Shown: positions 3,754-21,657 of the stretch, piece after piece
Position numbering within the stretch: the first letter of the stretch is position 1
Layout: every line of letters starts with the position of its first letter
Origin: a virus
Length of the DNA: 24,777 nucleotides
Virus record (IMG/VR): IMGVR_UViG_3300028925_000779
Location: 1-24,777 of that record
Reading direction: 5' to 3' (one strand)
Notes under the pieces: generated by a model
Told to the model about the DNA's origin: nothing
Database searches by the model: none
What the model saw: the letters and a program-made list of their open reading frames with translations, nothing else
Position numbers and translations under genes: made by a program

Positions 3754-3761
3754 TATCTTTG
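3754..3761 (+). promoter_or_regulatory. candidate host-type -7 promoter box
   Basis: TATCTTTG matches the Bacteroidota primary sigma -7 consensus TAnnTTTG exactly, in the only gap between the NinG-like gene and the next cluster. No TTG sits at the usual distance upstream for a -33 element, so it is incomplete. Its end is only 4 nt from the ATG at 3766, so the transcript would be leaderless or nearly so. If active, it would drive the sigma-factor operon from host polymerase. Confidence 0.4.
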
Positions 3762-3765
3762 GCGT

Positions 3766-6005: not shown

Positions 6006-6388
6006 TGAAGTTTGTAATAAAGTGTGATAAAGATAAGCAAAACCTGATACACTATTTAAAGGAATTAGGCAATGACTATTTAGTAGATGTAAAGAAACAA
6101 AGAAACACAAGGAGCAATATGCAGAATAACTATTATTGGAGTTGTATAGTACAGACACTATCTAATGAACTAGGCTACTACCCAGACGAAATTCACGACC
6201 TTTTAAAATTAAAGTTCTCAAGTGAATGGAATAGCATAGAGGTAAACGATAGGACTGTAGGGCTACAAACAATTAAGAGTACAGCAAGAATGGATAGCAA
6301 AGCTTTTGAGATATATGCAGACCAAATAAGAATATGGGCAATGACTGACTTAGGTATCAGACTAATGCTACCAAATGAATACGAGTAA
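6005..6388 (+). CDS. NinB-like phage recombination protein
   Basis: A 127-residue protein. The segment KKQRNTRSNMQNNYYWSCIV (about residues 30-49), followed by LSNELGYYPDEIHDLLKLKF and a C-terminal DQIRIWAMTDLGIRLMLPNEYE, matches a widespread phage family related to lambda NinB, which binds ssDNA in recombination. The R-x-x-x-QN-x-YYW signature is the strongest point. It is the last gene before the terminase, and its TAA is followed immediately by the first late promoter motif, so it probably ends the early/middle transcription unit. Confidence 0.6.
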   Translation: MKFVIKCDKDKQNLIHYLKELGNDYLVDVKKQRNTRSNMQNNYYWSCIVQTLSNELGYYPDEIHDLLKLKFSSEWNSIEVNDRTVGLQTIKSTARMDSKAFEIYADQIRIWAMTDLGIRLMLPNEYE

Positions 6389-6401
6389 TTTCTATTATAT
6401 A
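6371..6401 (+). promoter_or_regulatory. putative phage late promoter 1 (terminase)
   Basis: CCAAAT at 6371-6376, 12 nt, then TTTCTATTATATA at 6389-6401. The AAA and the TATTATATA part are separated by 17 nt, the spacing of a -35/-10 promoter. The 13-mer lies just after the upstream stop and ends 2 nt before the terminase small subunit ATG at 6404, so the predicted start site falls on or next to the ATG. Confidence 0.65.
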
Positions 6402-6403
6402 AT

Positions 6404-6757
6404 ATGGAAACAGAACAAAAGAGGACACAGGAGGGTAAAAAGAAGCTACTAGCTGCACTAGAGATGTCATTAGGTATAGTAACTGAAGCTTGTGAAAAAG
6501 CAGACATTACAAGAAGCCGACACTATGCTTGGATGCAAAGTGATGAAGAATACAAGAAAGCCGTAGATGATATAGATAGTAAATTTATTGACTTTGCTGA
6601 AACAAGTCTTAAGAAACAAATAAAGGAAGGTAACACAACTGCTACTACTTTCTTCCTAAGAACTAGAGGACGTAAGAGAGGTTATAATGAGAAACAAGAA
6701 ATAGACTTGACTTCAGGTGATGAACGTATCAAAATAAATATTAATCTTGGTGATTAA
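6404..6757 (+). CDS. terS: terminase small subunit
   Basis: A 117-residue protein with an N-terminal helix-turn-helix (LLAALEMSLGIVTEACEKAD, then ITRSRHYAWMQSDEEYKKAV) typical of terminase small subunits, followed by a helical segment (DFAETSLKKQIKEGNTTATT) and an FFLRTRGRKRGYNEK motif that occurs in this family. It recognises the packaging site on phage DNA and regulates the large subunit. The gene directly precedes and overlaps the large subunit. It has no ribosome binding site and starts 2 nt after the promoter-like 13-mer, suggesting a leaderless message. Confidence 0.88.
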   Translation: METEQKRTQEGKKKLLAALEMSLGIVTEACEKADITRSRHYAWMQSDEEYKKAVDDIDSKFIDFAETSLKKQIKEGNTTATTFFLRTRGRKRGYNEKQEIDLTSGDERIKININLGD

Positions 6758-8078
6758 ACCTGACCTATTAGAAATCAATCCACAATTTACACCTAAACAG
6801 AAAGAGTGTTTAAAGTATCTATTTGATGATAAGACTAAAGAGGTTTTATTTGGAGGTGCAGCTGGTGGTGGAAAGTCTTGGGTAGGATGTAGTTACTTAA
6901 TTACTATGTGTCTTCAATATCCAAAGACTAGATACTTGATGGGAAGGTCAAAGCTAGATGCTTTAAAAAAGACTACATTAAATACATTCTTTGAAGTATG
7001 CACCGAGTGGAACTTAAAAGCTATTAAGGACTACACGTTTAATGGATCAAGTAATGTGATAACCTTTTATAATGGTTCTGAGATAATATTAAAGGACTTG
7101 TTCTTATACCCATCAGACCGAAACTTTGATAGTTTAGGTTCGCTTGAAATAACAGGTGCTTTCATTGATGAAGCAAATCAAATTACTGAGAAGGCTAAAA
7201 ACGTAGTAGCATCAAGGCTAAGATACAAGCTTGACGAAAATGGCTTAATACCTAAGATGCTTATGACTTGCAACCCTGCAAAGAATTGGGTGTACTCAGA
7301 GTATTACAGACCTGCTCAAGACAATACAATAAAACATTACAGAAAGTTCATTCAATCTTTAGTGATAGATAATAACTATATCTCTAAGCATTACGAAACT
7401 CAGCTATCTCAATTAGACGAACTAAGTAAGCAAAGACTTTTATTTGGTAATTGGGAATATGATGCTACTGCTGATAGTCTTATAGACTACAATTCTATAA
7501 TGAGTATGTTTAGTCAGAAAGGAATAGAAGGTGATAAATACATAACTTGTGATGTAGCACGATTTGGAAGCGATAAGACAGTTATAATGCTTTGGCAAGG
7601 GCTACACATTAGATACATAAGAACTATCCTTAAATCTGCTGTAAATGAGGTTGTGGACGAGATTAAGAAACTACAACAAGAGAATGGAGTTAATCTTAGG
7701 AATATAATAGTAGATGAGGACGGAGTAGGTGGTGGTGTGAAGGATTACTTAAGATGTCAAGGATTTACAAATAATGCAAGACCTATAAAAGGTGAGAACT
7801 ATCAGAACCTAAAAACTCAATGCTATTACAAATTAGCAGACCAAATAAACAAAGGACAGATAGGAGTAAGTTGTTCAGATGTAAATGTTAAGAATTACAT
7901 AACTGAGGAGCTAGAGCAAGTCAGAACTAAGGACGCAGATAAAGATAATAAACTACAGATAATTCCTAAAGATACAGTCAAGTCTATTCTAGGTCGTTCT
8001 CCTGATTATGCTGATGCTTTAGCTATGAGAATGTTTTATGAGATAGATAGTAACTTTGGAAGGTATTTTGTGCAGTAA
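6750..8078 (+). CDS. terL: terminase large subunit
   Basis: About 442 residues, the packaging motor ATPase and headful nuclease. The Walker A GGAAGGGKSW is at about residues 35-44, Walker B GAFIDEA with the catalytic acid pair near 140-141, and the coupling motif MTCNPAKNW near 173-180. The RNase H-like nuclease carries acidic residues in ITCDVARFGSDKT (about 268), IVDEDGVGGG (about 322) and PDYADALAM (about 420). There is no ATG in frame near the start. TTG at 6747 and GTG at 6750 are possible; I chose GTG because it gives the same 8-nt GTG-to-stop overlap seen at 4680. Length is normal for this family. Confidence 0.95.
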   Translation: MIKPDLLEINPQFTPKQKECLKYLFDDKTKEVLFGGAAGGGKSWVGCSYLITMCLQYPKTRYLMGRSKLDALKKTTLNTFFEVCTEWNLKAIKDYTFNGSSNVITFYNGSEIILKDLFLYPSDRNFDSLGSLEITGAFIDEANQITEKAKNVVASRLRYKLDENGLIPKMLMTCNPAKNWVYSEYYRPAQDNTIKHYRKFIQSLVIDNNYISKHYETQLSQLDELSKQRLLFGNWEYDATADSLIDYNSIMSMFSQKGIEGDKYITCDVARFGSDKTVIMLWQGLHIRYIRTILKSAVNEVVDEIKKLQQENGVNLRNIIVDEDGVGGGVKDYLRCQGFTNNARPIKGENYQNLKTQCYYKLADQINKGQIGVSCSDVNVKNYITEELEQVRTKDADKDNKLQIIPKDTVKSILGRSPDYADALAMRMFYEIDSNFGRYFVQ

Positions 8079-8086
8079 AAAAAATC

Positions 8087-8119
8087 GTTAAACTAAAAAC
8101 AACAAATTTCTATTATATA
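8087..8119 (+). promoter_or_regulatory. putative phage late promoter 2 (tail chaperone)
   Basis: The 13-mer TTTCTATTATATA lies at 8107-8119, 4 nt before the ATG at 8124. The upstream element is the weakest of the five: TTAAAC at 8088-8093, one base farther away (18-nt spacing instead of 17). It sits in the 45-nt gap after the terminase stop. Confidence 0.6.
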
Positions 8120-8123
8120 GTGT

Positions 8124-8726
8124 ATGAAAGTTAAAATTAAAAAAGAAGGGAAAACAGAATCGTTCAATTTAATTAAAAGTTGGAATGATGTTACATTAGA
8201 ATCTTGGTTAAAATTAATGACATTTGATTCGGATATAAATTCTGAAGATGCTGCCAAAACAATAAAAGAATTATCTGATATTCCAAAGAAGTTAATAAAA
8301 GAACTTTCATTATCGGATGTAGCAGTAATGTTGAATTGGATTTCTGAGCTTCAAGCTAAACAAGATACTAAGCTTAAAAGGATAATAGAGATTAATGGTA
8401 TTGAATATGGATGGCATCCTGACCTCGATTCCATAACTTTAGGTGAGTATGCCGATATTGAAACATTTATCAAAAAAGGAATAGAGAAAAGATTACCTGA
8501 ATTGATGTCTGTTCTCTATCGTCCTATCAAACAGAAACACGAAAATGGAGTTTACATAATAGAGCCTTATGATGGTGATATAAGGATGAGAGCAGAAGAA
8601 ATGAAAAAGATGTCAGCAGAACAAGTACAAAGTGCGATGGTTTTTTTTTATCATTTAGGGAAACTATTGTGCGAGATTTTGCAATTATATTCGATTCAGA
8701 AGCAGAAGGAAATGATGAAGCTATAG
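8124..8726 (+). CDS. tail assembly chaperone, short form (lambda gpG-like)
   Basis: A 200-residue protein beginning with a small strand-rich region, then SWNDVTLESWLKLMTF, a form seen in tail assembly chaperones of Bacteroidota phages. Later it has EIADIETF-like helices and RMRAEEMKKMSAEQVQSAMV near 155-173. The frame contains a run of nine T (8641-8649) near its end, and an overlapping -1 frame continues to 8899 with a conserved domain, the arrangement of lambda G and GT. The short form would be made most of the time and the frameshifted form at lower ratio; together they coat the tape measure protein before tail tube assembly. A late promoter motif lies 4 nt upstream. Confidence 0.75.
   Translation: MKVKIKKEGKTESFNLIKSWNDVTLESWLKLMTFDSDINSEDAAKTIKELSDIPKKLIKELSLSDVAVMLNWISELQAKQDTKLKRIIEINGIEYGWHPDLDSITLGEYADIETFIKKGIEKRLPELMSVLYRPIKQKHENGVYIIEPYDGDIRMRAEEMKKMSAEQVQSAMVFFYHLGKLLCEILQLYSIQKQKEMMKL
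8642..8648 (+). other. -1 ribosomal frameshift slip site (T TTT TTT)
   Basis: In the chaperone frame the codons read GTT TTT TTT TAT. The heptamer T TTT TTT at 8642-8648 obeys the X XXY YYZ rule, and a -1 slip leads into the open frame ending at 8899. The fused product would be 258 residues: 175 from the first frame and 83 from the second. I see no convincing stem-loop right after the site. Confidence 0.65.
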
Positions 8727-8899
8727 CAACAAATGATTTCGCAAGTTCTTGGGGATGGTTTGGAGTTATGCACAGATTGTGCGGTGAAGATATTAGTAAG
8801 TTGGAAAGTATTACAAAGCTTAGTCTTTTAAATTGTTTGACTTGGTTAAGTTATGAAACAGATTTAAACTCTCAAAATAAAGTAAAAAGAAATGGTTAG
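8669..8899 (+). CDS. tail assembly chaperone, -1 frameshift extension (lambda gpT-like)
   Basis: This frame is open well upstream of the slip site and closes at TAG 8897-8899. Its only nearby internal start is a GTG at 8669, so independent translation is unlikely; it is best read as the C-terminal part of a fusion entered at 8648. The protein carries FASSWGWFGVMHRLCGEDIS and KLESITKLSLLNCLTWLSYE, the W-G-W-(Y/F) ... G-x-D-I pattern found in the T-part of chaperones in Bacteroidota phages. The T domain is thought to bind tail tube subunits and deliver them to the growing tail. It ends in an 8-nt overlap with the next gene. Confidence 0.68.
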   Translation: MRDFAIIFDSEAEGNDEAIATNDFASSWGWFGVMHRLCGEDISKLESITKLSLLNCLTWLSYETDLNSQNKVKRNG

Positions 8900-9440
8900 A
8901 AATAAAAGTTATAATAATGTCGTCAATACTCTATTAAGACTAGGTGAGTATCACAAGCAAATAAAAACAACTTCGGTAGGAGATATTTTTTCAATCGATT
9001 TGGAAAAGGAAACTAAATTTCCATTACTGCATATTAATCCGACTTCAGTTACGACTGGTGATAGTCAGCTTGTCTACAACTTCCAAATATTCATAATGGA
9101 TATGGTAACGGAAAAGGATAATTGGACAATAAACAATACTGCTGCTGATTTCCCTAAGTTATATAAGACATTAAGCAATGAGCAAGATGTATTTAACGAA
9201 ACATTACAAATAGTAACTGATTTTATTGGTATGCTTAGACATAGTGAAAGGCAATCAATAGCAGGTGTTAATGATATTAATTCACCTATCTATTTTACAC
9301 AAGACCAATTTACAATAGAACCATTCCAAGAAAGGTTTGATAATTTATGCTGTGGTTATGTTTTCAATATAGGAGTCTTAGTACAGAACGACTTTCAGAC
9401 TTGTGATATTCCTGTTGATAAGCTTGGAGCAGGGTATTAA
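8892..9440 (+). CDS. putative virion structural / tail completion protein
   Basis: A 182-residue protein of a type that recurs in the head-tail region of Bacteroidota phages. It opens with YNNVVNTLLRLGEYHKQIKT, followed by VGDIFSIDLEKETKFPLLHI and a central VYNFQIFIMDMVTEKDN strand pair. It ends with LCCGYVFNIGVLVQNDFQTCD. The layout of alternating strands and one helix resembles tail terminator or completion proteins, and the neighbouring gene is HK97 gp10-like, which supports that. The exact role is inferred. The start overlaps the chaperone extension by 8 nt. Confidence 0.68.
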   Translation: MVRNKSYNNVVNTLLRLGEYHKQIKTTSVGDIFSIDLEKETKFPLLHINPTSVTTGDSQLVYNFQIFIMDMVTEKDNWTINNTAADFPKLYKTLSNEQDVFNETLQIVTDFIGMLRHSERQSIAGVNDINSPIYFTQDQFTIEPFQERFDNLCCGYVFNIGVLVQNDFQTCDIPVDKLGAGY

Positions 9441-9511
9441 TGAAATGGAAAATAGGATGGCTAACAATACAGATAGGATGGAAAAAATTTAAAATAACAA
9501 TTAACTTATAA
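9440..9511 (+). CDS. micro-protein of 23 residues (uncertain)
   Basis: A tiny frame whose ATG overlaps the upstream TAA in a TAATG junction, the same coupling used throughout this phage, and which fills the gap to the next gene. The product is basic and aromatic: MKWKIGWLTIQIGWKKFKI plus TINL, an alternating amphipathic pattern. It could be a real micro-protein, for example a small membrane-active peptide, or simply a leader reading frame. Only its position and composition support it. Confidence 0.3.
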   Translation: MKWKIGWLTIQIGWKKFKITINL

Positions 9512-9516
9512 TAAAA

Positions 9517-9966
9517 ATGGCAACACTAACAACTACAATTCAGGAAACAGTATCACTAAACGGAAGTCTTAGAGGCTCTACAATTGCAGTAACTACTGCG
9601 GGAATCAATGATGTATTTGAAAGAATAGTAACTTGTACAGCAAGTGTAGTAACTACAGTAGCAGTATTTGATACGCTACCTTCAACTTCAGCAGGAGCTA
9701 TTAATGTAGCAAAAACTAAATATGTCAGAATCACTAACTTGGAAACAGCTGTAGACATTGAACTAGCAGTAGTTACAACAGCTTCAAATTACCAAGTGAT
9801 ACTTACGGCAGGTCAATCACATATCCTTTGTCAGGGGGCAGACTTAGCTTTAGCTGAAGCAGATACTTCACCTTCTTTTGGAACTATGCAAGACTTAGCT
9901 TCCTTACAGATAAAACCAACAACAGCAGTTACTGCTAGAGTTGAAGTTTTCGTTGGATTAGAATAG
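9517..9966 (+). CDS. beta-rich virion structural protein
   Basis: A 149-residue protein very rich in Thr, Ala and Val with alternating strand patterns (TTIQETVSLNGSLRGSTIAV, YVRITNLETAVDIELAVV, YQVILTAGQSHILCQG). This is the composition of small phage structural beta-sandwich proteins, such as capsid decoration, neck or tail tube accessory subunits. I do not recognise a specific family. It lies between the tail completion candidates, and its stop overlaps the next GTG start by one base. Its preceding sequence has TATAAT at 9507-9512, which may be chance in AT-rich DNA. Confidence 0.72.
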   Translation: MATLTTTIQETVSLNGSLRGSTIAVTTAGINDVFERIVTCTASVVTTVAVFDTLPSTSAGAINVAKTKYVRITNLETAVDIELAVVTTASNYQVILTAGQSHILCQGADLALAEADTSPSFGTMQDLASLQIKPTTAVTARVEVFVGLE

Positions 9967-10505
9967 TGAATACTGACAATATAAAAAGGTACTTAAACAG
10001 CTTTGGTAAACAAGTAGTCAATCGTTCTAAGGGTAACTTACAAAAGGCAGGAAAGGGTGGAAAGCTAGAAAATTCTATTAAGTTTGAAGTAATAACAACT
10101 TCTGATGGGTTTACTGTACAATTCTCTATGTCTAACTATGGTCAATTTGTAGATAAAGGAGTTTCAGGAAATAAGCAATCACAATCTTATAAAGACTATA
10201 CAGGAAAGGTTGTTAAAAGTCCTTTTAAATATACTACAAAACAACCTCCACCTGATATATTATCTAAGTGGATAAAAAGAAAAGGTATAAAAGGTAGAGA
10301 TAAAAAGACAGGAAGATTTATAAGTAATATGTCATTAGCTTTCATAATGGGTAGAGCAATAAAAAGAGATGGTATAAAAAGCCTTAGTTTTTTCCAAAAG
10401 CCTTTAGGACTTGGATTAAAACAGTTTGGTAAAGAATTATTAGGTAATATAAAAGAAGACATATTAAATACTTTAAATAAAGAAACAATAACACAAGTAA
10501 ACTAA
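9966..10505 (+). CDS. HK97 gp10-like tail completion/neck protein
   Basis: A 179-residue basic protein starting at GTG 9966, one base into the previous stop. The region QFSMSNYGQFVDKGVSGNKQ around residues 52-71 is the signature of HK97 gp10-type proteins, where Y-x-x-F-V-x-x-G follows a beta strand. Downstream PPPDILSKWIKRKGI, AFIMGRAIKRDGI and SLSFFQKPLG complete the family pattern, with a helix that contacts neighbouring subunits. Family members complete the tail end or neck before head joining. The long basic middle section (KGRDKKTGRFIS) is somewhat extended. Confidence 0.75.
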   Translation: MNTDNIKRYLNSFGKQVVNRSKGNLQKAGKGGKLENSIKFEVITTSDGFTVQFSMSNYGQFVDKGVSGNKQSQSYKDYTGKVVKSPFKYTTKQPPPDILSKWIKRKGIKGRDKKTGRFISNMSLAFIMGRAIKRDGIKSLSFFQKPLGLGLKQFGKELLGNIKEDILNTLNKETITQVN

Positions 10506-11971
10506 TGGGAACACTAATAGAACAAAAACCTAAACATTCATATTTTCCTGTAGGTCAAGATGTAATTTTTACAGTTTCAAATAATGCAGTAGTTACTAAT
10601 CCTGATTATACTAGAGTCAAGTTTATAGCTGAAGTTCATATCAGTTCAGAATTAGAAGTAAATCTATCGAATAATGATGATGTAGTAGGCGTATTCAAAA
10701 CTACTCCAAATAATGCAGGGGTTGGAATGTTTGATTGTAGACCTATCATTGAAAGCTTTGTAAGTACAGATAATAAAGCTAGAGATAATAGTTCATTTAA
10801 AACAGTTGAAAATACAAACTTAAGAACACCTATTCACATTATAGATAAGTTCTCAGGAAATAACAATTCCTTTCGTTATTTTGCTATACAATTTAAGATA
10901 GAATATTTTGACAACTCTTTATTAACCCCTGCTTTAGTAACAGCAGGTGTAACAAATACAGGAAGTTTTAAGTTATTCAATGGCTATTTAAAGCATTCTA
11001 ATTTGTTAGATATGGGAACAGGGGGTAATATTAATAATTTCGGTTATAATTTAAACGATTTTGATTTAACCTCTGATACTAAAAAGTTTTTATCTAATGC
11101 ACCAACTATACAGTATGCTAATATTGAAGATTATGGAACTACATCAATATTAATGATAAACCCTTTAACTGATATAGAGGTAAATACCGGTACAGCTGCC
11201 GGAGGAACAGCTATGATTAGGTTTGATTATTATGAAGCTAATGGAACTCCAATAACAGGTAATCCTGTAACAAGTTTTGAAACTATTAGATTAGACCAAA
11301 CAGCTACAGGGGGGTTTGCTTATGCCAATGAGGATTACGCTTATAATAAGTTAGTATATGCAGGAGTATTTCCTGCTAATCTAAGGAATTGGAGTACCCT
11401 TTTTAACGATAATATTGATGATATTGCATATTATACATATAAAGTACAAACATTAAATCTTGCAGTAGCAAGTGATATTTCACAAACTTATAGAATAAAC
11501 ATAAACTGTCCTACTTTAAAAGGTTACCAACCAATAAGACTCACGTGGCTTAATCAATGGGGAACTTGGGATTACTACACTTTCAATATGAAATCTACTA
11601 AGTCTATATCAACTAAAGGAAGCACATACCAACAGCTTGAAGGAACTTGGAATGAAGCGGTTTATAAGCTAGATGGATATAAAGGAGGTAAAAAGTCTTT
11701 TAGAGTAAATGCTACAGAAAAGATAAGTATGAATACAGACTTTGTTAGTGAATCAGAATCAGAGTGGTTTGAAGAACTTATAAATAGTCCTGAAGTATAT
11801 ATCTTAGAAGGCTTCCAAAACGATAATGTAAATTCAGCTTTAAATACTTACGTAATACCTACAAGACTTCTAACTTCTAGCTTTACAAAAAAGACTGTAG
11901 CAAACGATAAACTTATGCAATACACTTTTGAAGTGGAAAAGAGTAAGACACTTAGAACTCAATCAATATAA
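10505..11971 (+). CDS. large tail/baseplate structural protein
   Basis: A 488-residue protein with no signal peptide or membrane segment and a beta-rich composition. It begins with a domain containing YFPVGQDVIFTVSNN and later carries YQPIRLTWLNQWGTWDYYTF (about residues 340-360), followed by VNATEKISMNTDFVSESESE and WFEELINSPEVYIL near 415-440. This combination is recurrent in uncharacterised structural proteins of Flavobacteriia phages. It is linked by TAATG junctions to gp10-like and the 920-residue protein, so it likely belongs to the distal tail or baseplate. The precise part is not determined. Confidence 0.68.
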   Translation: MGTLIEQKPKHSYFPVGQDVIFTVSNNAVVTNPDYTRVKFIAEVHISSELEVNLSNNDDVVGVFKTTPNNAGVGMFDCRPIIESFVSTDNKARDNSSFKTVENTNLRTPIHIIDKFSGNNNSFRYFAIQFKIEYFDNSLLTPALVTAGVTNTGSFKLFNGYLKHSNLLDMGTGGNINNFGYNLNDFDLTSDTKKFLSNAPTIQYANIEDYGTTSILMINPLTDIEVNTGTAAGGTAMIRFDYYEANGTPITGNPVTSFETIRLDQTATGGFAYANEDYAYNKLVYAGVFPANLRNWSTLFNDNIDDIAYYTYKVQTLNLAVASDISQTYRININCPTLKGYQPIRLTWLNQWGTWDYYTFNMKSTKSISTKGSTYQQLEGTWNEAVYKLDGYKGGKKSFRVNATEKISMNTDFVSESESEWFEELINSPEVYILEGFQNDNVNSALNTYVIPTRLLTSSFTKKTVANDKLMQYTFEVEKSKTLRTQSI

Positions 11972-14733
11972 TGAGCGTTCAATTAATATTACAGCCTCAA
12001 AACGTACAAGGATTTAGTAATGATATTTCTGTAATTAATGGAGAAATGATTGTTAATGGATCTAGTTTTAGTGGAGTTAATAATGCTACAGGTTATACTA
12101 CTGCCGCAACTAGCCCTTTTCAAGATGTTCTAGATAATGCTCCTGCTACAGTACCTAATACTTGGTACAAATTTAAGAGTGATGCTTCTGCTAATTATCC
12201 TAGTGATAGTTTTAATACTTTATTTTTTAGTCAAGTAGCAGACATCGATATATTTACAGGAATTTACCAACAGATGACAAATTTAATAGTTGGTCAAGTT
12301 TACGATGTTACTATTCAGATTAATGGATCATTATCTGCAAATAGTTATTTTGGATTGTCAGTAAGTAATGTTAATGGAGCTTTAAATACCTTTATTTTTC
12401 CAAATAATCTGATTGCTACTGTTTCATTTACAGCTACAATTACAAATCCAACTATCTTATTTTGGTCTGCTTCTGATACAGTAGAAACTAATCTTATTCA
12501 ATTAATCTCAGTAATAGGTGCTACTCAATTAGTTAATATTGTTAATGGTGACGGTCAAGTTATTTGCGACCTATATGAAGAGGAGGATTTGCCTTTGACT
12601 CTTAGTGTTGATGATTTTAAAAATGTAGCTGAGAAAGTCCAGTCTTATTCAAAGGCTTTTAACTTACCTGCAACTAAAAGGAATAATAAAATATTTGACC
12701 AAGTCTTTGAAATAACAAGAGCTGAAGATGGTATTATTTTTAACGCTTATAGAAGAACTCAATGTATTTTGAAGCAAGATGGATTCATTCTCTTTGAAGG
12801 GTATTTAAGGCTCTTAGATGTAACTGATAAGAATGGAGAGATAAGTTATAACGTAAATCTTTATTCAGAAGTAATAGCTTTAGCAGACTACTTAAAAGAC
12901 TTAGACTTTAGAGCTTTAGGCTTTGAAGAACTAGAACACGTTTATAATAAAGACAATATTAAAGACAGTTGGAATGATGGATCGCCAGGACAAACAACTC
13001 CTATTGCTTATTTAAACCCAAGTACATCAGGCTTTAGAACAAACTTTGAAACTGTAAAATACCCTTTTGTAGATTGGAATCATCAATTTATAGTAGCTGA
13101 TAATCCAGGAGGGGGTCCAGGGCCTACACACGGAAATACTCAGCTACCTACTTTAGAAACAGCATTTAGACCTTTCATTAATATTAAATATTTAATAGAT
13201 AGGATATTTAAAGATTCTCCTTTTACTTATGAAAGTGACTTCTTTAACACTTCAGACTTCAAGAAATTGTATATGGACTTTAATTGGGGAGCTGATAATT
13301 TTTCTAATATTAATACTTCATATGAGGCGACTTGGGATTATAGTGCAGGAGCTGCAGCTAATGTAGGAAATAATTCTTTTAAAGCATTAAGATTAATTCC
13401 TGAGGGAGTTACAGGTGGAGCAGTAGGTTCTACTTTACCACCAAATTATGATACAAATACATATACTATTACAGCTACTACAGATAATGAAATGTATGCA
13501 GTGTATTATAACTTTAGTTTTGAAAATATTAGCCTTTTTGATAAAGTAGTTGATTGTAGATGGCGACTCACAAATGCCTTAGGAAATACATCTTTTAATG
13601 CTTCGTCTATAACTATACAAAACGCATCAGTTTTAGGTAATGGTACTGCTAATTGGGTTGGTTCATTTTTAATTATACTTCAAGAAAACGACACTTTAAA
13701 AGCACAATTTGATGGGGATACATCAACACGGCAAAACCAAAGTGAAGTATCTGAAGCTTTATTTAATGTATCTAATATTAATGTTACATCAGCATCTTTA
13801 AATACATCAAGAGGAGAGTTAGGACAATGGGATTTCTTAAAAGGGTTGCTTACAATGTTTAACTTAGTAACCTTGCCTGATGAAGATAACCCTAACAATA
13901 TAAAGATAGAACCTTACGGAAATATATTCCTTCCAAGCACTGATATTAATAACCCTAATTTCTATGACTTAAATAGTGTTCAGTTAGATTGGACAGACAA
14001 GATAGATGTTTCTCAAATAAAGCTAACACCTCTGACAGATTTAAATAAAAAGACAATGTTTAAGTTTGTAGAAGATGATGATGACTATTCTTTTAATCAA
14101 TATAAGAATCTAGTAGGTGGTCATTTATACGGAAGTGAATTAAGTAATGCAGGAGACTCATTTAATATTCTAGATGGTGAAGAAGAAATAGTAGCAGAAC
14201 CTTTTGCAGCAACAATAGTCAAGCCTTTAATGAGTCAATTTACTCAATTTATAACTCCTGCAGTTTATGCTAGGGGTTCGGAAGATGAATGGGAAGGATT
14301 TGAAAACTCACCTAGAATAATGTATAATAACGGAATCAAAAGTACAGGTTCTTCTTATTATATCCCTGCACAGAATGGATTAGGTAGTGAGAATCAATTT
14401 AATTTTTTACAGTTTAGTCATTTATCAGATGTTCCTGTAGTAACGGCATCAAGAGATTTCCATTTTGGTATTTGTCAATTAATGCCGGGAGTAGGTGGAG
14501 TAGTTGGAGGAACAGTAAATAATTTATTTAACATATATTGGCAGCCTTATTTTAACGAACTTTATAATCCTGATACAAGGACTATGACTATTAAAGTCAA
14601 TCTAAGTCCTGCTGATATCAATACATTTTCATTCAATTTTACCGTATACATTAAGAATAGATTATTTAGAGTAAACAAGATAGACTACAAACCAAACGAT
14701 TTAGCAACAGTAGAATTTATACTTATACCATAA
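11971..14733 (+). CDS. large tail tip/baseplate protein with jelly-roll-like insertions
   Basis: A 920-residue protein, the longest in the window. Residues about 25-180 look like a jelly-roll module (NTWYKFKSDAS, VGQVYDVTIQINGS, VSFTATITNPTIL). From about 185 a conserved tail segment follows: DLPLTLSVDDFKNVAEKVQS, SKAFNLPATKRNNKIFD, CILKQDGFILFEGYLRLLDV and LADYLKDLDFRALGFEELEH. A second beta-rich insert spans about 440-610, and the core resumes at QWDFLKGLLTMFNLVTLPDE. The interrupted core resembles distal tail/Tal-type proteins of Bacteroidota phages, and the inserts could bind host glycans. Starts and ends in TAATG overlaps. Confidence 0.68.
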   Translation: MSVQLILQPQNVQGFSNDISVINGEMIVNGSSFSGVNNATGYTTAATSPFQDVLDNAPATVPNTWYKFKSDASANYPSDSFNTLFFSQVADIDIFTGIYQQMTNLIVGQVYDVTIQINGSLSANSYFGLSVSNVNGALNTFIFPNNLIATVSFTATITNPTILFWSASDTVETNLIQLISVIGATQLVNIVNGDGQVICDLYEEEDLPLTLSVDDFKNVAEKVQSYSKAFNLPATKRNNKIFDQVFEITRAEDGIIFNAYRRTQCILKQDGFILFEGYLRLLDVTDKNGEISYNVNLYSEVIALADYLKDLDFRALGFEELEHVYNKDNIKDSWNDGSPGQTTPIAYLNPSTSGFRTNFETVKYPFVDWNHQFIVADNPGGGPGPTHGNTQLPTLETAFRPFINIKYLIDRIFKDSPFTYESDFFNTSDFKKLYMDFNWGADNFSNINTSYEATWDYSAGAAANVGNNSFKALRLIPEGVTGGAVGSTLPPNYDTNTYTITATTDNEMYAVYYNFSFENISLFDKVVDCRWRLTNALGNTSFNASSITIQNASVLGNGTANWVGSFLIILQENDTLKAQFDGDTSTRQNQSEVSEALFNVSNINVTSASLNTSRGELGQWDFLKGLLTMFNLVTLPDEDNPNNIKIEPYGNIFLPSTDINNPNFYDLNSVQLDWTDKIDVSQIKLTPLTDLNKKTMFKFVEDDDDYSFNQYKNLVGGHLYGSELSNAGDSFNILDGEEEIVAEPFAATIVKPLMSQFTQFITPAVYARGSEDEWEGFENSPRIMYNNGIKSTGSSYYIPAQNGLGSENQFNFLQFSHLSDVPVVTASRDFHFGICQLMPGVGGVVGGTVNNLFNIYWQPYFNELYNPDTRTMTIKVNLSPADINTFSFNFTVYIKNRLFRVNKIDYKPNDLATVEFILIP

Positions 14734-15614
14734 TGGGGCAAATATCAATAGAATATAAAACAGGCTTTAATGTCAAACCTTTATCAGTTTCAGGATTAGG
14801 TATTGTAACTTTTACTTCAGGAGTTTATGATGACTTTGGAATAATTAAAGTTTCACCTAATCAAATGCAATGTGAAGCTTATGGATATACCTATAATCAA
14901 GCAACAGGAACTTGCTCTGCTTTCAGAAACAATACAAATCTAAACATAGCTGTTGCAAATGAAAATAACAAGTCTTTAGGTAAGGGTAATTCAACAGAAA
15001 CAGGAACAAACAATACTTTAGTAATAGGTGAGAACAATACAGTTAAAGGTTTCTCAAGAAATAGTATTATATCAGGAAGTAGAAATGAAATAGCTAATGG
15101 AATAAACAATGCAAACGTATCAGGATTTTTAGGTGAAGCTACAGCAAGTAATTCTATAGTATTAGGGGGAAATAGTAATGGTGATATATTAGGTCAAAGA
15201 CAATTTATTCGCTGTATATATGCTGCCCAAACTACAAGTAACTCATCAGTTTCTAGTTCTTTAAATAATGAAACAGGAGTAAGGTTTGTTATACCTGATA
15301 ATACAATCATATATTTTCACGCTGAAACAGTAGTGGTTAGAACAGGTGGTTCTAATGCAGCCGGTGCGGTTGGTGATTATGGTTCTTATGTAGAGAGGGG
15401 TGTTATAATTAATAAATCAGGAACAACTACTATACAAAGAGAACGAGATACAATCAAGACTTCAGGAACTGTAACTAATTGGAGAATATTAGCTGAAACA
15501 GGAGGAGCTGCAGGAGCAATCTTAAAGTTATCTTGCAGAGGTCAAACAAATATGATACTAGAGTGGTGTATGAATGTAAGTATCACACAAATTAAAACAG
15601 GAGTAACCTTATAA
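14733..15614 (+). CDS. tail fibre/adhesin with YadA-like head repeats
   Basis: A 293-residue protein. Residues about 85-150 contain repeats of the trimeric adhesin head type: NNTLVIGENNTVKGFSRNS, IISGSRNEIANGINNANVSG, then NSIVLGGNSNGD. Each unit is about 14-16 residues with N-x-S/T and I-x-x-G positions, as in YadA left-handed beta rolls. An N-terminal part (up to about 70) probably anchors it to the tail tip and the C-terminal 130 residues, ending in a beta-rich ILEWCMNVSITQIKTG, form a head. It probably trimerises and contacts the host surface. It lies between the tail tip protein and the tape measure. Confidence 0.65.
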   Translation: MGQISIEYKTGFNVKPLSVSGLGIVTFTSGVYDDFGIIKVSPNQMQCEAYGYTYNQATGTCSAFRNNTNLNIAVANENNKSLGKGNSTETGTNNTLVIGENNTVKGFSRNSIISGSRNEIANGINNANVSGFLGEATASNSIVLGGNSNGDILGQRQFIRCIYAAQTTSNSSVSSSLNNETGVRFVIPDNTIIYFHAETVVVRTGGSNAAGAVGDYGSYVERGVIINKSGTTTIQRERDTIKTSGTVTNWRILAETGGAAGAILKLSCRGQTNMILEWCMNVSITQIKTGVTL

Positions 15615-15624
15615 AAATAAAACT

Positions 15625-17274
15625 ATGGGAAACACAACAGAAACTGCTACATTTAATGTAAAATCTAATATAGGGGACGTAGGAAAAGATGCAAAGTCAG
15701 CAGCAGGAGAGTTCAAAGTTATGGGTATTTCTTTAAATGGAGTAAAGGCAGGCTTTGCTTCAGCAGCAGTAACAGCAAAAGGAATGTTCGGTTCTATTAA
15801 GGCAGGTTTAATTTCAACAGGTATAGGAGCTTTTGTAGTCCTTATTGGTTCTCTAATGGTTTTTCTAACTAAGACAAAAAAAGGAGCAGAACTTTTAGAA
15901 ACAGCATTTGCAGGAGTTGGAGCTGCTATAGCAGTTATTACAGACAGGATTTCAGCTATTGGAGGTGCTATTGCAAAAGTATTTTCAGGAGATTTCAAAG
16001 GTGCTGTAAATGATGTAAAAGGAGCTTTAACAGGTATTGGAGATGAGATAAAAAAAGAGCTAACTCTAGCTATGGAATTAGAGAGAGCCTTTCAAAGAAT
16101 AGCAGATAGTGAAAGGGGATTAAATCTTGAAAGAGCTGAAGCAAATAAAATAATTGCAAAGGCTAGATTAGATGCAGAAGATGAAACAAAAACTTTAGAA
16201 GAAAGAATGACTGCTTTGCAGAAAGCAAATGATGAAGAACTAAGAATAACTGCAAAATCTTTAGCATTACAAAAAGAAAAAGTTGAAGCTACTAGGCAGG
16301 AGGTTGGAATGGGGGAAAGTATGTCTGAAGATTTGGAAAAGTTAAACCAAGAAAAGATAAAGCTAATAAATATGGAAACGGCTAGTTTCTCTATGCAGAA
16401 AAGATTAACTACAGGGCTTGAAACTTTAAAGGTTGAAGCAGCTACAAAAGAAAGAGCAAGAGAAAAGACAAGGCAAGACGGAATAAAAGCAGAGGCAAAA
16501 GCTGTTCAAGATAGGGTTGACGCTGAAAAGAAACAAATCCAAGAGTTGATAGACTTAGAACAAGATAGACTTAATAAGTTAATTATAGATGGAGCAGAAT
16601 TGTTAGATAAATTTAACGAATCACAATTAGAAGCACAAGATAAAGAAACAAATGCTATATATGATAAATATTTTGCAATAATAGAAGGCAAAAAAGCACT
16701 AGGAGAATCAGTAGTTGAATTGGAAGAAAACCAACAGGCTGAACTATTTGAAGTTACCGAAAAATATAGAATAATGGAAGTGGATGCTGATGAGGCATCA
16801 GCTAAGAAAAAGAAAGATATTGAAAAATCAAAAGTGGATATGCAAATTGATATGGCAAATCAAGGACTTCAAATTTTAGGAGCTGCGGCGGGAGAAGGAA
16901 CAGCTTTAGCAAAAGCAGCAGCAATAGCACAAGCCACTATCTCAGGAGTTCAAGGAGTACAGAATGCATTTACAGCAGCAAATGCAAATACTGCCGCTAC
17001 AGCAAGTTCTTTTGGTGCTTATCCTATAACTATGGCGGCACTAGCAGGAACATTTGCCGCTATGAATATAGCTAAGATTGCAAGTGGTGGAAAACCTGGA
17101 GGAACGCAACCAACACCACCAACAACTAATACACCTGCACCACAAATGATGTCAGGAGCTTTTGATATATCAGGAGGGGTAGCACCTGAACCTGTAGAGG
17201 CATTTGTACTTACAGATTCAATGACAAACAGTCAAAACCAGCTAGCTAATATAAGAAGAAGAGCTACAATCTAA
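15625..17274 (+). CDS. tape measure protein
   Basis: A 549-residue protein with the organisation of a tape measure. Residues 61-81 form a hydrophobic, membrane-like segment (GLISTGIGAFVVLIGSLMVF), and about 145-395 is long charged coiled coil (LERAEANKIIAKARLDAEDE, AATKERAREKTRQDG, EASAKKKKDIEKSK). A second hydrophobic Ala-rich region spans about 410-490 (IAQATISGVQGVQNAFTAA), followed by a Pro/Thr linker. The end, VEAFVLTDSMTNSQNQLANI plus RRRATI, is a recurrent C-terminus in Bacteroidota phages. The protein sets tail length and later passes into the host during DNA injection. At about 0.15 nm per residue it predicts a tail of roughly 80 nm. Confidence 0.85.
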   Translation: MGNTTETATFNVKSNIGDVGKDAKSAAGEFKVMGISLNGVKAGFASAAVTAKGMFGSIKAGLISTGIGAFVVLIGSLMVFLTKTKKGAELLETAFAGVGAAIAVITDRISAIGGAIAKVFSGDFKGAVNDVKGALTGIGDEIKKELTLAMELERAFQRIADSERGLNLERAEANKIIAKARLDAEDETKTLEERMTALQKANDEELRITAKSLALQKEKVEATRQEVGMGESMSEDLEKLNQEKIKLINMETASFSMQKRLTTGLETLKVEAATKERAREKTRQDGIKAEAKAVQDRVDAEKKQIQELIDLEQDRLNKLIIDGAELLDKFNESQLEAQDKETNAIYDKYFAIIEGKKALGESVVELEENQQAELFEVTEKYRIMEVDADEASAKKKKDIEKSKVDMQIDMANQGLQILGAAAGEGTALAKAAAIAQATISGVQGVQNAFTAANANTAATASSFGAYPITMAALAGTFAAMNIAKIASGGKPGGTQPTPPTTNTPAPQMMSGAFDISGGVAPEPVEAFVLTDSMTNSQNQLANIRRRATI

Positions 17275-17276
17275 AA

Positions 17277-17307
17277 TCAAATAAAAGAACTTAATTTCTA
17301 TTATATA
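17277..17307 (+). promoter_or_regulatory. putative phage late promoter 3 (prohead protease)
   Basis: TCAAAT at 17277-17282, 12 nt, then TTTCTATTATATA at 17295-17307. Spacing between the elements is identical to promoters 1, 4 and 5. It sits in the 47-nt gap after the tape measure gene, with 14 nt between the motif and the ATG at 17322, so a short leader would be made. Confidence 0.65.
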
Positions 17308-17321
17308 AAAAAGACTATACT

Positions 17322-18041
17322 ATGCCTTGCGAAGAATGTTCAGACGGAAAATTTAAATGGGGAAAGACAGGAAGCTGTAAGTATGATTCTATAGCTGAAT
17401 GTGAAGCCGACAATAAAGACTACTATGAAGAAGAAAAGACTACTTCTATAGTTGAGCTTGTTATCGATGAATCAAATGAATCTTTAGCAATAGATGCTAT
17501 AAGTCTTGTGTCAGCTCCTGCCATAGAAGAAAATATGGTCTATATGAGTAAGGCTAAAAACAACTTAACTTTAGCAAAGATAGATTCTGAAAAAAGAGAA
17601 ATAATTTCTCCTGCCTTAATACCTGATAAAAATATCTATAGGTATGATGCTGATACGGATTCTGACTACTATGTGTATTTTAGTAAAGATACAGTTAAGA
17701 AATGTGCTTATAGTTACTTAAAAAATAACAATCACCACAAAGCTACATATCAACACCAAGACAGAGTTTCAGGCGTTCTAACTGTTGAATCTTGGATAAT
17801 AGAAGACCCTAAATTAGATAAGTCTAGTCTTTATGGTTATAATTTACCTTCAGGATCTTGGATGGTCAAAATGTCCATAACAAATGATGAGCTTTGGAAT
17901 AAGGTGAAATCAGGTGATATTCGAGGTCTTTCAATAGAAGGTTTTTTCACTTCAAAGTATGAAGCTATGCAAAAATCAGAACCAACTACCGAAGAAATAC
18001 TCAAAGCACTTAATGAAATAATCACAAAATCAAACAAGTAA
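17322..18041 (+). CDS. XkdF-like prohead protease
   Basis: A 239-residue protein of the XkdF / S78-like prohead protease type. After a Cys-containing N-terminus (MPCEECSDGKFKWGKTGSCK and YDSIAECEADNKDYYEE) that recurs in Bacteroidota phages, it shows AIDAISLVSAPAIEENMVYM, then HHKATYQHQDRVSGVLTVES with a candidate His145. GSWMVKMSITNDELWNKVKS is followed by RGLSIEGFF, where Ser204 is the likely nucleophile by analogy with S78 proteases. It would cleave scaffold and capsid proteins during head maturation. The scaffold and major capsid protein follow directly, as expected. Catalytic residues are inferred from pattern. Confidence 0.8.
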   Translation: MPCEECSDGKFKWGKTGSCKYDSIAECEADNKDYYEEEKTTSIVELVIDESNESLAIDAISLVSAPAIEENMVYMSKAKNNLTLAKIDSEKREIISPALIPDKNIYRYDADTDSDYYVYFSKDTVKKCAYSYLKNNNHHKATYQHQDRVSGVLTVESWIIEDPKLDKSSLYGYNLPSGSWMVKMSITNDELWNKVKSGDIRGLSIEGFFTSKYEAMQKSEPTTEEILKALNEIITKSNK

Positions 18042-18060
18042 CTAACCTTTCTATTATATA
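18030..18060 (+). promoter_or_regulatory. putative phage late promoter 4 (scaffold-capsid)
   Basis: TCAAAC at 18030-18035, 12 nt, then TTTCTATTATATA at 18048-18060. The upstream element overlaps the end of the protease gene. The ATG of the scaffold gene is 20 nt downstream of the motif, leaving a short A-rich leader. Confidence 0.65.
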
Positions 18061-18080
18061 TAGAACCTAAAAAACAAAAA

Positions 18081-18749
18081 ATGGATTTAAAAGAACAAAT
18101 ATTGGTAGCACTTGGTCTTGATAAAGGCGAAGAAGTTTCTCTTGCGTGGCAAGCGAAGTCAGAAGACGGAACTATTTTCGTTTCAACTGCTGAAGAATTA
18201 GCTAACGGTGTGGATATTAGCGTTTTAACTGAAGATGGCACGACAATTTTATTGCCAATCGGAACTTACAAGACTGATACTGGCGTTACTTTTAGAGTAG
18301 AAGAAGAAGGTATCGTTGCTGAAGTTATGGAAACTGAAACTGAAGAAGTAGTTGAAGAAGAATTAGCTGAAGATGATGGAAAAGAAGCTGACGTTGAAGA
18401 TTGGGCAGGAATGGAGAAAAGAATCCAAAACCTAGAAGATGCAGTAGCTGACCTTAAAAGAGATAAAGACGGAGGAGATGATGAGGTTGAAGAAATGGCT
18501 GAAGAAGTAACAGAGCCTTCTACTAATCCTAAAACTATTAAGACTACAGAAGTAGTTGAGTTCTCAGCAGAAGATGAATTAACAAAGTTAAAAGCTGAAA
18601 ATAAAAAATTAAAAACTGAATTATCTGAATCTCCTGCGTCAGCTCCTTTAGACACAAATAAATTTAGTTCAGAAAGAGCAACACCAACAAAACAAGATTT
18701 AAGAAGAATGACAAAACAAGAAAAATTCTTATACAATTTACATAACTAA
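18081..18749 (+). CDS. capsid scaffold-like protein
   Basis: A 222-residue, strongly acidic protein. Residues 1-95 form a small beta-rich domain (DGTIFVSTAEELANGVDISV, LTEDGTTILLPIGTYKT). From about 96 there is a Glu-rich section (EVVEEELAEDDG) with coiled-coil stretches at GMEKRIQNLEDAVADLKRDK and DELTKLKAENKKLKTELSE. The C-terminus is basic (KQDLRRMTKQEKFLYNLHN), like the capsid-binding end of phage scaffolds. Its position between protease and major capsid protein is the classical scaffold position. The N-terminal domain is also found in Bacteroidota phage proteins of this position. It is probably removed by the protease during maturation. Confidence 0.72.
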   Translation: MDLKEQILVALGLDKGEEVSLAWQAKSEDGTIFVSTAEELANGVDISVLTEDGTTILLPIGTYKTDTGVTFRVEEEGIVAEVMETETEEVVEEELAEDDGKEADVEDWAGMEKRIQNLEDAVADLKRDKDGGDDEVEEMAEEVTEPSTNPKTIKTTEVVEFSAEDELTKLKAENKKLKTELSESPASAPLDTNKFSSERATPTKQDLRRMTKQEKFLYNLHN

Positions 18750-18775
18750 TAATATAAACTAAAACAAACAAAAAA

Positions 18776-19702
18776 ATGGCTTTAACAACAACAAGCAATT
18801 TCGCAGGGAAGGCAGCAGGATTTTTCATCAGCAAAGCACTTCTAGGAGCAAACTCACTTGACTATTTAACAATGATAGAAAATATCAAGTATAAAAGTAA
18901 TGTGCAGGCACTAAATCAGACTGTAGCTAGTGTTTCAGCAGCAACGTGCGATTTCACAGGAGCAGGAACACTTGCTTTAACTGAAAAGGTCTTAGAGCCT
19001 GCAAATCTACAAATTAATATGGATTTATGCAAATCTGAACTTTTAGACAGCTTTGAAAGTTTACAAATGAGAGCAGGAGCAGGCGCACCATTTCCAGCTT
19101 CTTTTGACGAGTATGTAATCTCATATATGGGAGATATTATTGCTGAAGCAACAGAAAATTCTATTTGGGCAGGTGTTGCTAATGCAGGTGGGGACTTTAT
19201 CGGATTCACAGGAGCTGGAGCTGCAGGATGGTTAAGAGCTGGTAATGATGCAACAGTAGTGCAAGCAGTTTTAACAGGAGGTGCAGGTGTTGCTCCAGTA
19301 GTAGGAACAATTATTGCTGACATCCAAGCAGGATTAGATGCAGTACCATCAGCAGTTATTGGTAAAGATGATTTACATATCTACTTAAACCAAAAAAATT
19401 ACCAATTATACATCCAAGCAATTTCAGCTTTAGGTTACTTAAACGCTTACAATATGCAGGGTGAGTACGTTCCAATGTTTAACGGAATAAAAATAGCTGT
19501 GTGTAATGGTTTACAAAATGCAGCAATCGTAGTAGCTCAGAAGAGTAATTTATTTTATGGGACTGATTTACTTTCAGATGCAACTAGAATTACTTTGATG
19601 GATATGGCTCAGTTAGATGGTTCAGATAATATGAGATTGGTAGCTCGTTACTCAGGAGGAACACAAACAGGAACAGGAGCTGATTGCGTACTTGTATCTT
19701 AA
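18776..19702 (+). CDS. major capsid protein (HK97-fold type, inferred)
   Basis: A 308-residue protein in the capsid position, 26 nt after the scaffold gene and followed by a terminator. It has a helical N-terminal arm (MALTTTSNFAGKAAGFFISK, then ALLGANSLDYLTMIENIKYK), a central DSFESLQMRAGAGAPFPASF followed by EYVISYMGDIIAEATENSIW, and a C-terminal beta region containing DDLHIYLNQKNYQLYIQAIS, FNGIKIAVCNGL and LFYGTDLLSDATRITLMDM. The order matches A-domain and P-domain elements of HK97-type capsids (the FYGTDL segment corresponds to the late beta strands). A strong gene start with an A-rich leader suits high expression. No fold search was done. Confidence 0.8.
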   Translation: MALTTTSNFAGKAAGFFISKALLGANSLDYLTMIENIKYKSNVQALNQTVASVSAATCDFTGAGTLALTEKVLEPANLQINMDLCKSELLDSFESLQMRAGAGAPFPASFDEYVISYMGDIIAEATENSIWAGVANAGGDFIGFTGAGAAGWLRAGNDATVVQAVLTGGAGVAPVVGTIIADIQAGLDAVPSAVIGKDDLHIYLNQKNYQLYIQAISALGYLNAYNMQGEYVPMFNGIKIAVCNGLQNAAIVVAQKSNLFYGTDLLSDATRITLMDMAQLDGSDNMRLVARYSGGTQTGTGADCVLVS

Positions 19703-19719
19703 TAAATAAATATAAAGAA

Positions 19720-19747
19720 GGGAGGGATAAAATCCTCCCAACTTTTT
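19720..19747 (+). terminator. intrinsic terminator after the major capsid gene
   Basis: GGGAGG (19720-19725) pairs with CCTCCC (19734-19739) around an 8-nt A/T-rich loop, followed by AAC and five T. It lies 17 nt after the capsid stop and 22 nt before the next ATG, so partial termination would lower expression of the downstream gene relative to capsid. Confidence 0.75.
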
Positions 19748-19768
19748 AACCCAAAAAAATAAAAAAAA

Positions 19769-20359
19769 ATGGCACATTGTATAGCACTTACAAAAGGACG
19801 TGAATTAGACTGTTCGAGAATTTCGGGTGGAGTTCGCTACCTTTATTTTGGGGTTTATGACCAATATCTAACTCCAATAGAAACAGCAGGAATAGTACAA
19901 GCAGCAGGAAGCGTATCAGATATTAATATGGATGATGCTGCAATAATTTATAGATATGCAATGCCTTTAGGTGCTGCTTCTGTAACTGAAACTATTACAG
20001 GTTCTACTGAAAACGGAACGATTTTTTACACTCCAACCGTAAATCTAGTTATGAATAAACTTACTGCTATTGATCAAAACGAAATTCGTTTATTAGGTCA
20101 AACTAAAGTAGTAATTTTTGCTCAATTAAATGAAATTATCCCTGCTAATCAGCATAATACTATTATTGCTTTAGGAGTGACTAATGGTATGGCTTTGAAT
20201 ACAGGTACTATGGACACAGGTGCTGCTTTCGGGGACAGAAACGGATACACTCTTACCTTCGATGGTTTAGAGCCTAATCCGTTCCCATTCGTGGCAGATT
20301 ACACAACTGAACCATTTGATAATACTGCATTCTCTAACTTTACAGTAGACACAAACTAA
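19769..20359 (+). CDS. major tail tube-like protein
   Basis: A 196-residue protein. It begins IALTKGRELDCSRISGGVRY and YLYFGVYDQY, then TGSTENGTIFYTPTVNLVMN, KLTAIDQNEIRLLGQTKVVI and, near the end, GMALNTGTMDTGAAFGDRNG followed by YTLTFDGLEPNPFPF. The same order (TKGR-C-GG, NGT-F-TPTVNL, GTA-TGAAFGDRNGYTLTF) occurs in major tail proteins of Bacteroidota phages. It would polymerise into the tail tube. Finding it in the head module, after the capsid gene, is unusual because the other tail genes lie at 8-17 kb. It is followed by a terminator and the structured RNA candidate. Confidence 0.72.
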   Translation: MAHCIALTKGRELDCSRISGGVRYLYFGVYDQYLTPIETAGIVQAAGSVSDINMDDAAIIYRYAMPLGAASVTETITGSTENGTIFYTPTVNLVMNKLTAIDQNEIRLLGQTKVVIFAQLNEIIPANQHNTIIALGVTNGMALNTGTMDTGAAFGDRNGYTLTFDGLEPNPFPFVADYTTEPFDNTAFSNFTVDTN

Positions 20360-20379
20360 TCTTTTTATCTGTTTTCTTA

Positions 20380-20387
20380 TAATTTTG
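20380..20387 (+). promoter_or_regulatory. possible host-type -7 box upstream of the structured RNA
   Basis: TAATTTTG fits the TAnnTTTG consensus of Bacteroidota primary sigma factors. No TTG is present at the -33 distance. A start about 6-8 nt downstream would place the RNA 5' end at the first hairpin (from 20392). In AT-rich DNA this short match may be chance. Confidence 0.25.
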
Positions 20388-20391
20388 AATG

Positions 20392-20415
20392 GGGTATCTT
20401 AATTGATACCCTTTT
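20392..20415 (+). terminator. hairpin with T tail after the tail tube gene
   Basis: GGGTATC (20392-20398) and GATACCC (20405-20411) form a perfect 7-bp stem with a TTAATT loop, followed by TTTT and a C/T-rich stretch. It lies 32 nt after the tail tube stop and looks like an intrinsic terminator. It could alternatively be the 5' hairpin of the RNA below. Confidence 0.65.
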
Positions 20416-20420
20416 CTACA

Positions 20421-20506
20421 CTTAGTGAGGGTGGTGCGGTTAGTCCGTATATAGGGAAACCTAGCGTTCACTATGGGATTAAGGTTGCTTCGGCAGCCTT
20501 TTTCCC
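20421..20506 (+). ncRNA. candidate structured RNA with four stems in the intergenic gap
   Basis: Four stems can be drawn. P1: TAGTGAG (423-429, offset 20000) with TTCACTA (467-473), including a G-U pair. P2: TGCGG (435-439) with CCGTA (445-449), loop TTAGT. P3: TAGG (452-455) with CCTA (460-463), closed by a GAAA tetraloop. P4: AAGGTTGC (481-488) with GCAGCCTT (493-500) around a TTCG tetraloop, extended by GGGA (475-478) and TCCC (503-506) across a 2x2 internal loop, followed by no long T run beyond the T inside the stem. P1 encloses P2 and P3 as a small multibranch junction. No known family was recognised; P4 alone might be a terminator. The rest of the gap 20360-20546 holds the terminator and promoter. 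Confidence 0.5.
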
Positions 20507-20513
20507 TTATTAA

Positions 20514-20544
20514 CCAAACAGAATCATACTTTTTCTATTATATA
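20514..20544 (+). promoter_or_regulatory. putative phage late promoter 5 (lectin-portal cluster)
   Basis: CCAAAC at 20514-20519, 12 nt, then TTTCTATTATATA at 20532-20544, spacing identical to promoters 1, 3 and 4. It starts 8 nt after the end of the structured RNA candidate and ends 2 nt before the ATG at 20547, again implying a leaderless or near-leaderless mRNA. Confidence 0.65.
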
Positions 20545-20546
20545 AT

Positions 20547-21656: not shown

Positions 21657-21657
21657 A

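Follow-up and report, generated by a model that had tools for sequence, protein, structure and literature searches.

The five copies of the 13-mer TTTCTATTATATA were best explained as late promoters, which would be used by the host core RNA polymerase together with an ECF-like sigma factor encoded by the phage (ORF 4115-4687). The probability of this reading was put at about 90%. The DNA analysed, called the window here, comprised 24,777 nt of the virus record IMGVR_UViG_3300028925_000779 (positions 1 to 24,777). The motif, its positions, its conservation, the fixed spacing of its two parts and its co-divergence with the sigma gene were established. The phage group is marine, and its hosts were inferred to be flavobacteria from its kinship with flavobacterial phages. 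The initial annotation had already proposed late promoters. That proposal was supported as the best reading, and as one that does not involve host sigmaA, but the sigma gene, the clade variants, the start site and the near absence of leaders had been missed.

The motif occurred at 6389, 8107, 17295, 18048 and 20532, always on the + strand and each time ahead of a late gene; all five copies given previously were exact and correctly placed. It was the commonest 13-mer of the window. Every other 13-mer had at most three copies, and the remaining ones with three were shifted versions overlapping TTTCTATTATATA. The statement that five copies were very unlikely by chance was in agreement with order-2 Markov simulations, in which windows of the same order-2 composition as the real one contained non-repetitive 13-mers in no more than two copies. 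Furthermore, a position matrix from 183 sites of protein-selected relatives (near-identical contigs included) scored the five sites at 25.5-38.2 bits, the next-best window position at -3.3 bits, and 40 simulated windows at a maximum of 14.5 bits. With two mismatches allowed, the window had seven matches against 5.8 by chance; the excess was gone, so the signal resided in the exact motif. A generic sigma-70 promoter scan returned fewer sites than in shuffles and was uninformative, and an Rfam search gave no matches. The promoters and the units that they would serve are as follows.

6371-6404, + strand: late promoter 1, before TerS; CCAAATGAA at 6371-6379, TTTCTATTATATA at 6389-6401, predicted start 6404, the A of the ATG
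6404-8078, + strand: promoter 1 unit, small (6404-6757) and large (6747-8078) terminase genes, from PHROGs/Pfam
8089-8122, + strand: late promoter 2, before g19; TAAACTAAA at 8089-8097, TTTCTATTATATA at 8107-8119, predicted start 8122, ATG at 8124
8124-17274, + strand: promoter 2 unit, g19 through the tape-measure-like gene; boundaries inferred
17277-17310, + strand: late promoter 3, before the protease gene; TCAAATAAA at 17277-17285, TTTCTATTATATA at 17295-17307, predicted start 17310, ATG at 17322
17322-20359, + strand: promoter 3 and 4 units, protease (Peptidase_S78_2), g29, g30 (coat-like by position) and g31; boundaries inferred
18030-18063, + strand: late promoter 4, before g29; TCAAACAAG at 18030-18038, TTTCTATTATATA at 18048-18060, predicted start 18063, ATG at 18081
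19720-19739, + strand: terminator-like hairpin between g30 and g31; consensus match only
20481-20500, + strand: intrinsic-terminator-like hairpin directly 5' of late promoter 5; consensus match only
20514-20547, + strand: late promoter 5, before g32; CCAAACAGA at 20514-20522, TTTCTATTATATA at 20532-20544, predicted start 20547, the A of the ATG
20547-23652, + strand: start of the promoter 5 unit, g32 and portal; boundary inferred

Of the earlier gene labels, TerS and protease were confirmed by profiles, but tail chaperone, scaffold and lectin-like found no support. Terminator-like sites numbered 13 against 6.8 expected, again by consensus match only. Besides the hairpin at 20481-20500, the 187-nt intergenic region 20360-20546 contained an inverted repeat (GGGTATC...GATACCC) followed by T-rich sequence; this region had no Rfam match.

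The upstream element was TMAAMTAAA, located at -18 to -10 relative to the 13-mer, as derived from 58 non-redundant contexts in relatives, and the AA at -16/-15 was present in 58/58. It described the sites better than the YCAAAY proposed before, which had been placed 12 nt upstream with the copy at 8107 one base out. Because the AA positions were fixed in every site, this exception vanished; 8107 was in register, all five sites shared that register, and a spacing 1 nt longer at one of them was rejected.

The phage sigma factor and its operon

The proposed reader of the late promoters and the proposed promoter of its operon were the following.

3754-3765, + strand: host-sigmaA-type -7 box TATCTTTG, 4 nt before the g09 ATG; proposed promoter of the g09-sigma operon
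4115-4687, + strand: ECF-like sigma factor of 190 aa, from fold and weak sequence matches

The ORF lies upstream of the late genes. Its AF2 model showed two blocks of helices joined by a linker of low confidence, a sigma2-linker-sigma4 arrangement (pLDDT 76, pTM 0.45). Nearly all of the top 50 hits of a PDB fold search (Foldseek) were sigma factors or RNAP-sigma complexes. The best was M. tuberculosis SigL (probability 1.00, E 5.4e-3), with uncertain domain orientation, and none had an E value below 0.001. Viral fold matches included several annotated sigma proteins. The support from sequence was weak: phrog_36 matched at 4e-4, Pfam gave nothing for the window protein at 0.001, and a phmmer/profile search of the PDB by sequence had no significant match. 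Sigma70_r4 was found, below threshold, in 25 of 31 relatives. The test for a phage-encoded sigma-70-family protein was met, in the window by fold and in the cultured Nonlabens phage P12024S above the Pfam cutoff. In architecture the window protein, at 190 aa, also fitted an ECF sigma factor (sigma2 and sigma4 only, a linker, about 150-200 aa), whereas by sequence only the P12024S protein exceeded a cutoff of the Sigma70_r2 or r4 models.

The TAnnTTTG box preceded g09 in 51/52 relatives, 47 of them with the offset of the window. In P12024S, the sole forward TAnnTTTG-N4-ATG precedes gene 29, the head of the sigma-containing operon. A host-type box ahead of the sigma operon makes a cascade from host sigma to phage sigma plausible. 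The sigmaA -7 box spans -12 to -5 (PMC9723704), so the g09 transcript start would fall on the A of the ATG. Judged from this geometry alone, the sigma-operon transcript is predicted to be leaderless. Directly after the sigma gene and overlapping it, positions 4680-5087 encoded a small Cys-rich DUF6171 protein, which was co-conserved with sigma and could be a transcription partner.

Conservation in relatives and co-divergence with the sigma gene

The relatives were IMG/VR contigs retrieved with terminase and sigma queries (144 loci, 1.3 Mb). These protein-selected loci contained TTTCTATTATATA 203 times in forward and twice in reverse orientation, compared with 0-2 occurrences for each of eight permuted control 13-mers. 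For g19, the upstream motif was exact in 62 of 65 relatives and had one mismatch in 3; for g32, the numbers were 46 and 5 of 51. Among 59 distinct sequences upstream of TerS, 39 had the exact motif and 4 had one mismatch, and some of the exceptions carried a different cassette or an intervening gene. The protease and g29 sites of relatives were often degenerate (for instance AATCTATTATATA and ATTCTATTATATT, respectively), and of about 25 other genes in relatives, not one was preceded by the motif. Absence of the motif at the corresponding genes of close relatives had been named beforehand as a refutation; that check was run, and the motif was present. The test for a repeated conserved motif at the heads of late operons, of the phage 7-11 type, was also met.

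Out of 2.9 million viral contigs, the bipartite DNA signature drew almost nothing but this phage group, as 119 of the 120 stretches listed carried its genes. Since the 119 were picked by the pattern itself, they are evidence of specificity and not of frequency. The remaining stretch (L021) was unrelated to the group and was presumably a chance match. A genome-wide prophage scan yielded only two contigs of 29-36 kb (L265 and L266), in Pseudooceanicola and Euryarchaeota MAGs; they were rejected as prophages of these organisms, being probably misbinned phage contigs.

In a subset of relatives, promoters 1 and 2 were kept, and other genes stood between them in place of the terminase cassette. These encode a small protein and a TerL-like protein of a different kind, and their similarity to the window genes was not detectable. 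The leaders of alternative terminase cassettes in clades A and B (see below) had a near-palindrome, TTGATTAATCAA or ATTGAATAATCAAT, then an A/T-rich TTTCAA stretch and the ATG. The near-palindrome is unexplained, and an operator or an RNA hairpin is possible.

L265:12487-14072 and L198:3492-5000: replaced terminase cassettes between two conserved late promoters
L198:3505-3534; L250, L265, L266, L290:8107 onwards: near-palindrome leaders

In the gap between g31 and g32, paired late motifs about 620 nt apart were seen at L023:1863/2493, L063:6262/6892 and L005:5501/6121, apparently marking an additional gene that has a promoter of its own.

The motif changed together with the sigma gene. Clade B, reached from clade A (that of the window) via a g19 homologue, carried CAAAA or TAAAA followed by CGTTATATA (137 forward vs 5 reverse); position +12 was a purine, frequently the A of the ATG. 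Its sigma, a diverged relative of that of clade A, was detected in 25/84 loci (profile E 1e-15 to 1e-9), the other loci being mostly too short upstream to contain the gene; the link to clade A was strong over region 4 only. Clade C, consisting of P12024S and its relatives, had CGTTAATATA or close variants. All six late sites of P12024S (CGTTA-type; record positions 167, 3019, 5400, 23949, 25189 and 26790) had the ATG exactly at +12. The sigma of this Inhavirus (P12024S_33), at the equivalent position, passed the Pfam cutoff for Sigma-70 region 2 (PF04542, 1.4e-5), and clade C contigs with a 48-67% identical sigma had the same or nearly the same motif. The clade A and clade C proteins showed only weak homology (hhalign probability 37%), leaving position and fold class as the grounds for calling them orthologous. 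The motif layout was shared by the three clades, with C at -12 from the predicted start in each.

The test for co-variation of sigma and promoter specificity was therefore met by three clades with three cores, which are few independent contrasts. Since these clades are also phylogenetically related, the co-variation could reflect common descent. The exact motif was missing from the cultured Flavobacterium phage 11b and Cellulophaga phage phi10:1 (TerL 52-54% identical), and a sigma homologue could not be detected in either. A tblastn search of INPHARED with clade A or B sigma queries gave no match. It missed the P12024S sigma too, so the absence from 11b and phi10:1 means only that none was detected.

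Predicted start sites, leaders and rival explanations

The distance from the motif start to the ATG was 15, 17, 27, 33 and 15 nt at the five window sites, two of which abut the start codon. In 180 non-redundant sites, the ATG lay at +15 in 48 and at +17 in 62 (110/180 together), a pyrimidine occupied +14 in 167 and a purine occupied +15 in 178. The purine was kept in 61/61 sites with the ATG at least 20 nt away, which indicates that it is not an artefact of the ATG. On this conservation, and without transcript data, the purine at +15 is the probable transcription start site. The 17295 and 18048 sites have A rather than a pyrimidine at +14, which counts against the preferred explanation. The predicted leaders of promoters 1-5 were 0, 2, 12, 18 and 0 nt, respectively. 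Codons 2-10 of g19 varied chiefly at third positions and in-frame stops lay directly upstream of start codons, so the annotated starts look right.

The proposed course of events is as follows. The TATCTTTG box at 3754 would direct the host sigmaA holoenzyme to the sigma operon, whose transcription would let the phage sigma build up. Its sigma4 domain may read TMAAMTAAA and its sigma2 domain CTATTATATA, and transcription would begin at the purine some 15 nt past the first base of the motif. For TerS and g32 this purine would be the A of the ATG, and for g19 it would lie 2 nt before the ATG, leaving these late mRNAs essentially without a 5' leader. Sigma binding, start site, timing and leaderlessness are all inferences, in the absence of transcript data. 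A broader reading, to which we incline with considerable reserve, is that a large group of marine flavobacterial phages, most of them uncultured, uses such a two-step cascade with the sigma-operon promoter fused to the start codon, that many of its phage-sigma late promoters are fused too, making much of the phage mRNA leaderless (0-2 nt), and that this happens in hosts of which only a small share of the mRNAs lacks a leader. Leaderless mRNAs account for 5.5% in F. psychrophilum (PMC9723704), and most leaders of F. johnsoniae exceed 10 nt (PMC6847099). For phage transcripts at large, frequent leaderlessness has been described (PMC5312081). If true, the lack of leaders would offer a good system for studying ribosomes that start on a 5'-terminal AUG independently of Shine-Dalgarno sequences.

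Recognition of the motif by the phage sigma is only inferred, which leaves room for these promoters to be read by the RNA polymerase of the host with its own sigmaA, or with a host ECF sigma and a phage activator, while the sigma-like protein serves elsewhere. This was considered very unlikely. The motif lacks TAnnTTTG, as noted in the initial annotation; this box is absent from all five late sites, which fail the test for a Bacteroidota host sigmaA promoter (TAnnTTTG -7 box). In addition, the motif changes from clade to clade in step with the phage sigma, and both went undetected in 11b and phi10:1.

The closeness of the ATG, within 15-17 nt of the motif at 110/180 sites, and the lack of Shine-Dalgarno sequences in Bacteroidota (PMC6847099) would suit an element acting at the RNA level, namely a signal for translation initiation or mRNA processing in the 5' part of late mRNAs. 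Such an element would hardly be missing before most late genes, and the ATG distance varied from 15 to 56 nt, yet the +15 purine remained constant. The second upstream element at fixed spacing and the divergence of the motif along with the sigma gene also make this account highly implausible. A repeated site for replication, packaging or recombination could explain an exact repeat with one copy ahead of the terminase genes. However, 4/5 copies lie away from the terminase start, the copies are always codirectional and directly before operon-head genes, and their two-part geometry is promoter-like, so that this idea is scarcely credible. Late promoters read with the phage sigma remained the best account.

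Comparison with known systems

Late (or middle) transcription is directed by phage sigmas in T4 (gp55) and SPO1 (gp28 and gp33-34). These belong to different families with different consensus sequences, and T4 also requires the sliding clamp and gp33. In phage 7-11, which is phiEco32-like, the sigma SaPh711_gp47 drives bipartite late promoters, GTAAtg-(16)-aCTA (PMC8948821). As proposed here, a phage sigma acts on the host core, and sigma and promoters diverged together among related phages (PMC8948821). However, the host phylum and the consensus differ, no sequence relationship was shown, and homology is not claimed. The report on phage 7-11 does not mention leaderless mRNAs (PMC8948821), and the present sets span three clades. 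Compared with phage 7-11, the sigma clades and their specificities are new, as are the breadth and the prediction that leaders are missing. In phiEco32, gp36 likewise takes the place of the host sigma at middle and late genes, but its promoters have a single element, tAATGTAtA, and gp36 has no region 4 homology (PMC8948821, PMC4331800). The present sigma, in contrast, has a region-4-like C-terminal domain and its promoter a -35-like element.

The predicted sigma2-linker-sigma4 layout and the best fold match (M. tuberculosis SigL, 6dv9) resemble ECF sigmas, and the CGT of the clade B and C -10 resembles ECF -10 elements, including that of flavobacterial SM6 (PMC9723704). However, no anti-sigma was identified, the clade A -10 is CTATTATATA, and the similarity stays under Pfam cutoffs. 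The three matched sigma/promoter sets form a natural series for studying how small sigmas select -10 and -35 sequences.

P12024S and P12024L (Inhavirus) share with the window homologous portal (31%), g30 (24%) and g19-like (28%) proteins, and upstream of their terminase they too have a sigma-type gene, which there encodes a protein with Sigma-70 region 2. They differ in the motif core and in having promoters at other junctions, because their TerL gene and g19 homologue overlap. For environmental phages without a close cultured member, the analysis provides a mechanism of late transcription that can be tested, and the cultured P12024S and its host, Nonlabens (Persicivirga) sp. IMCC12024, make it accessible to experiment. 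In addition, positions 419-970 of the window encoded a phage protein with a weak match to the DnaA C-terminal domain (Pfam 6.5e-5, under the curated cutoff); the annotation of Cellulophaga phage phi10:1 likewise includes a DnaA-like gene.
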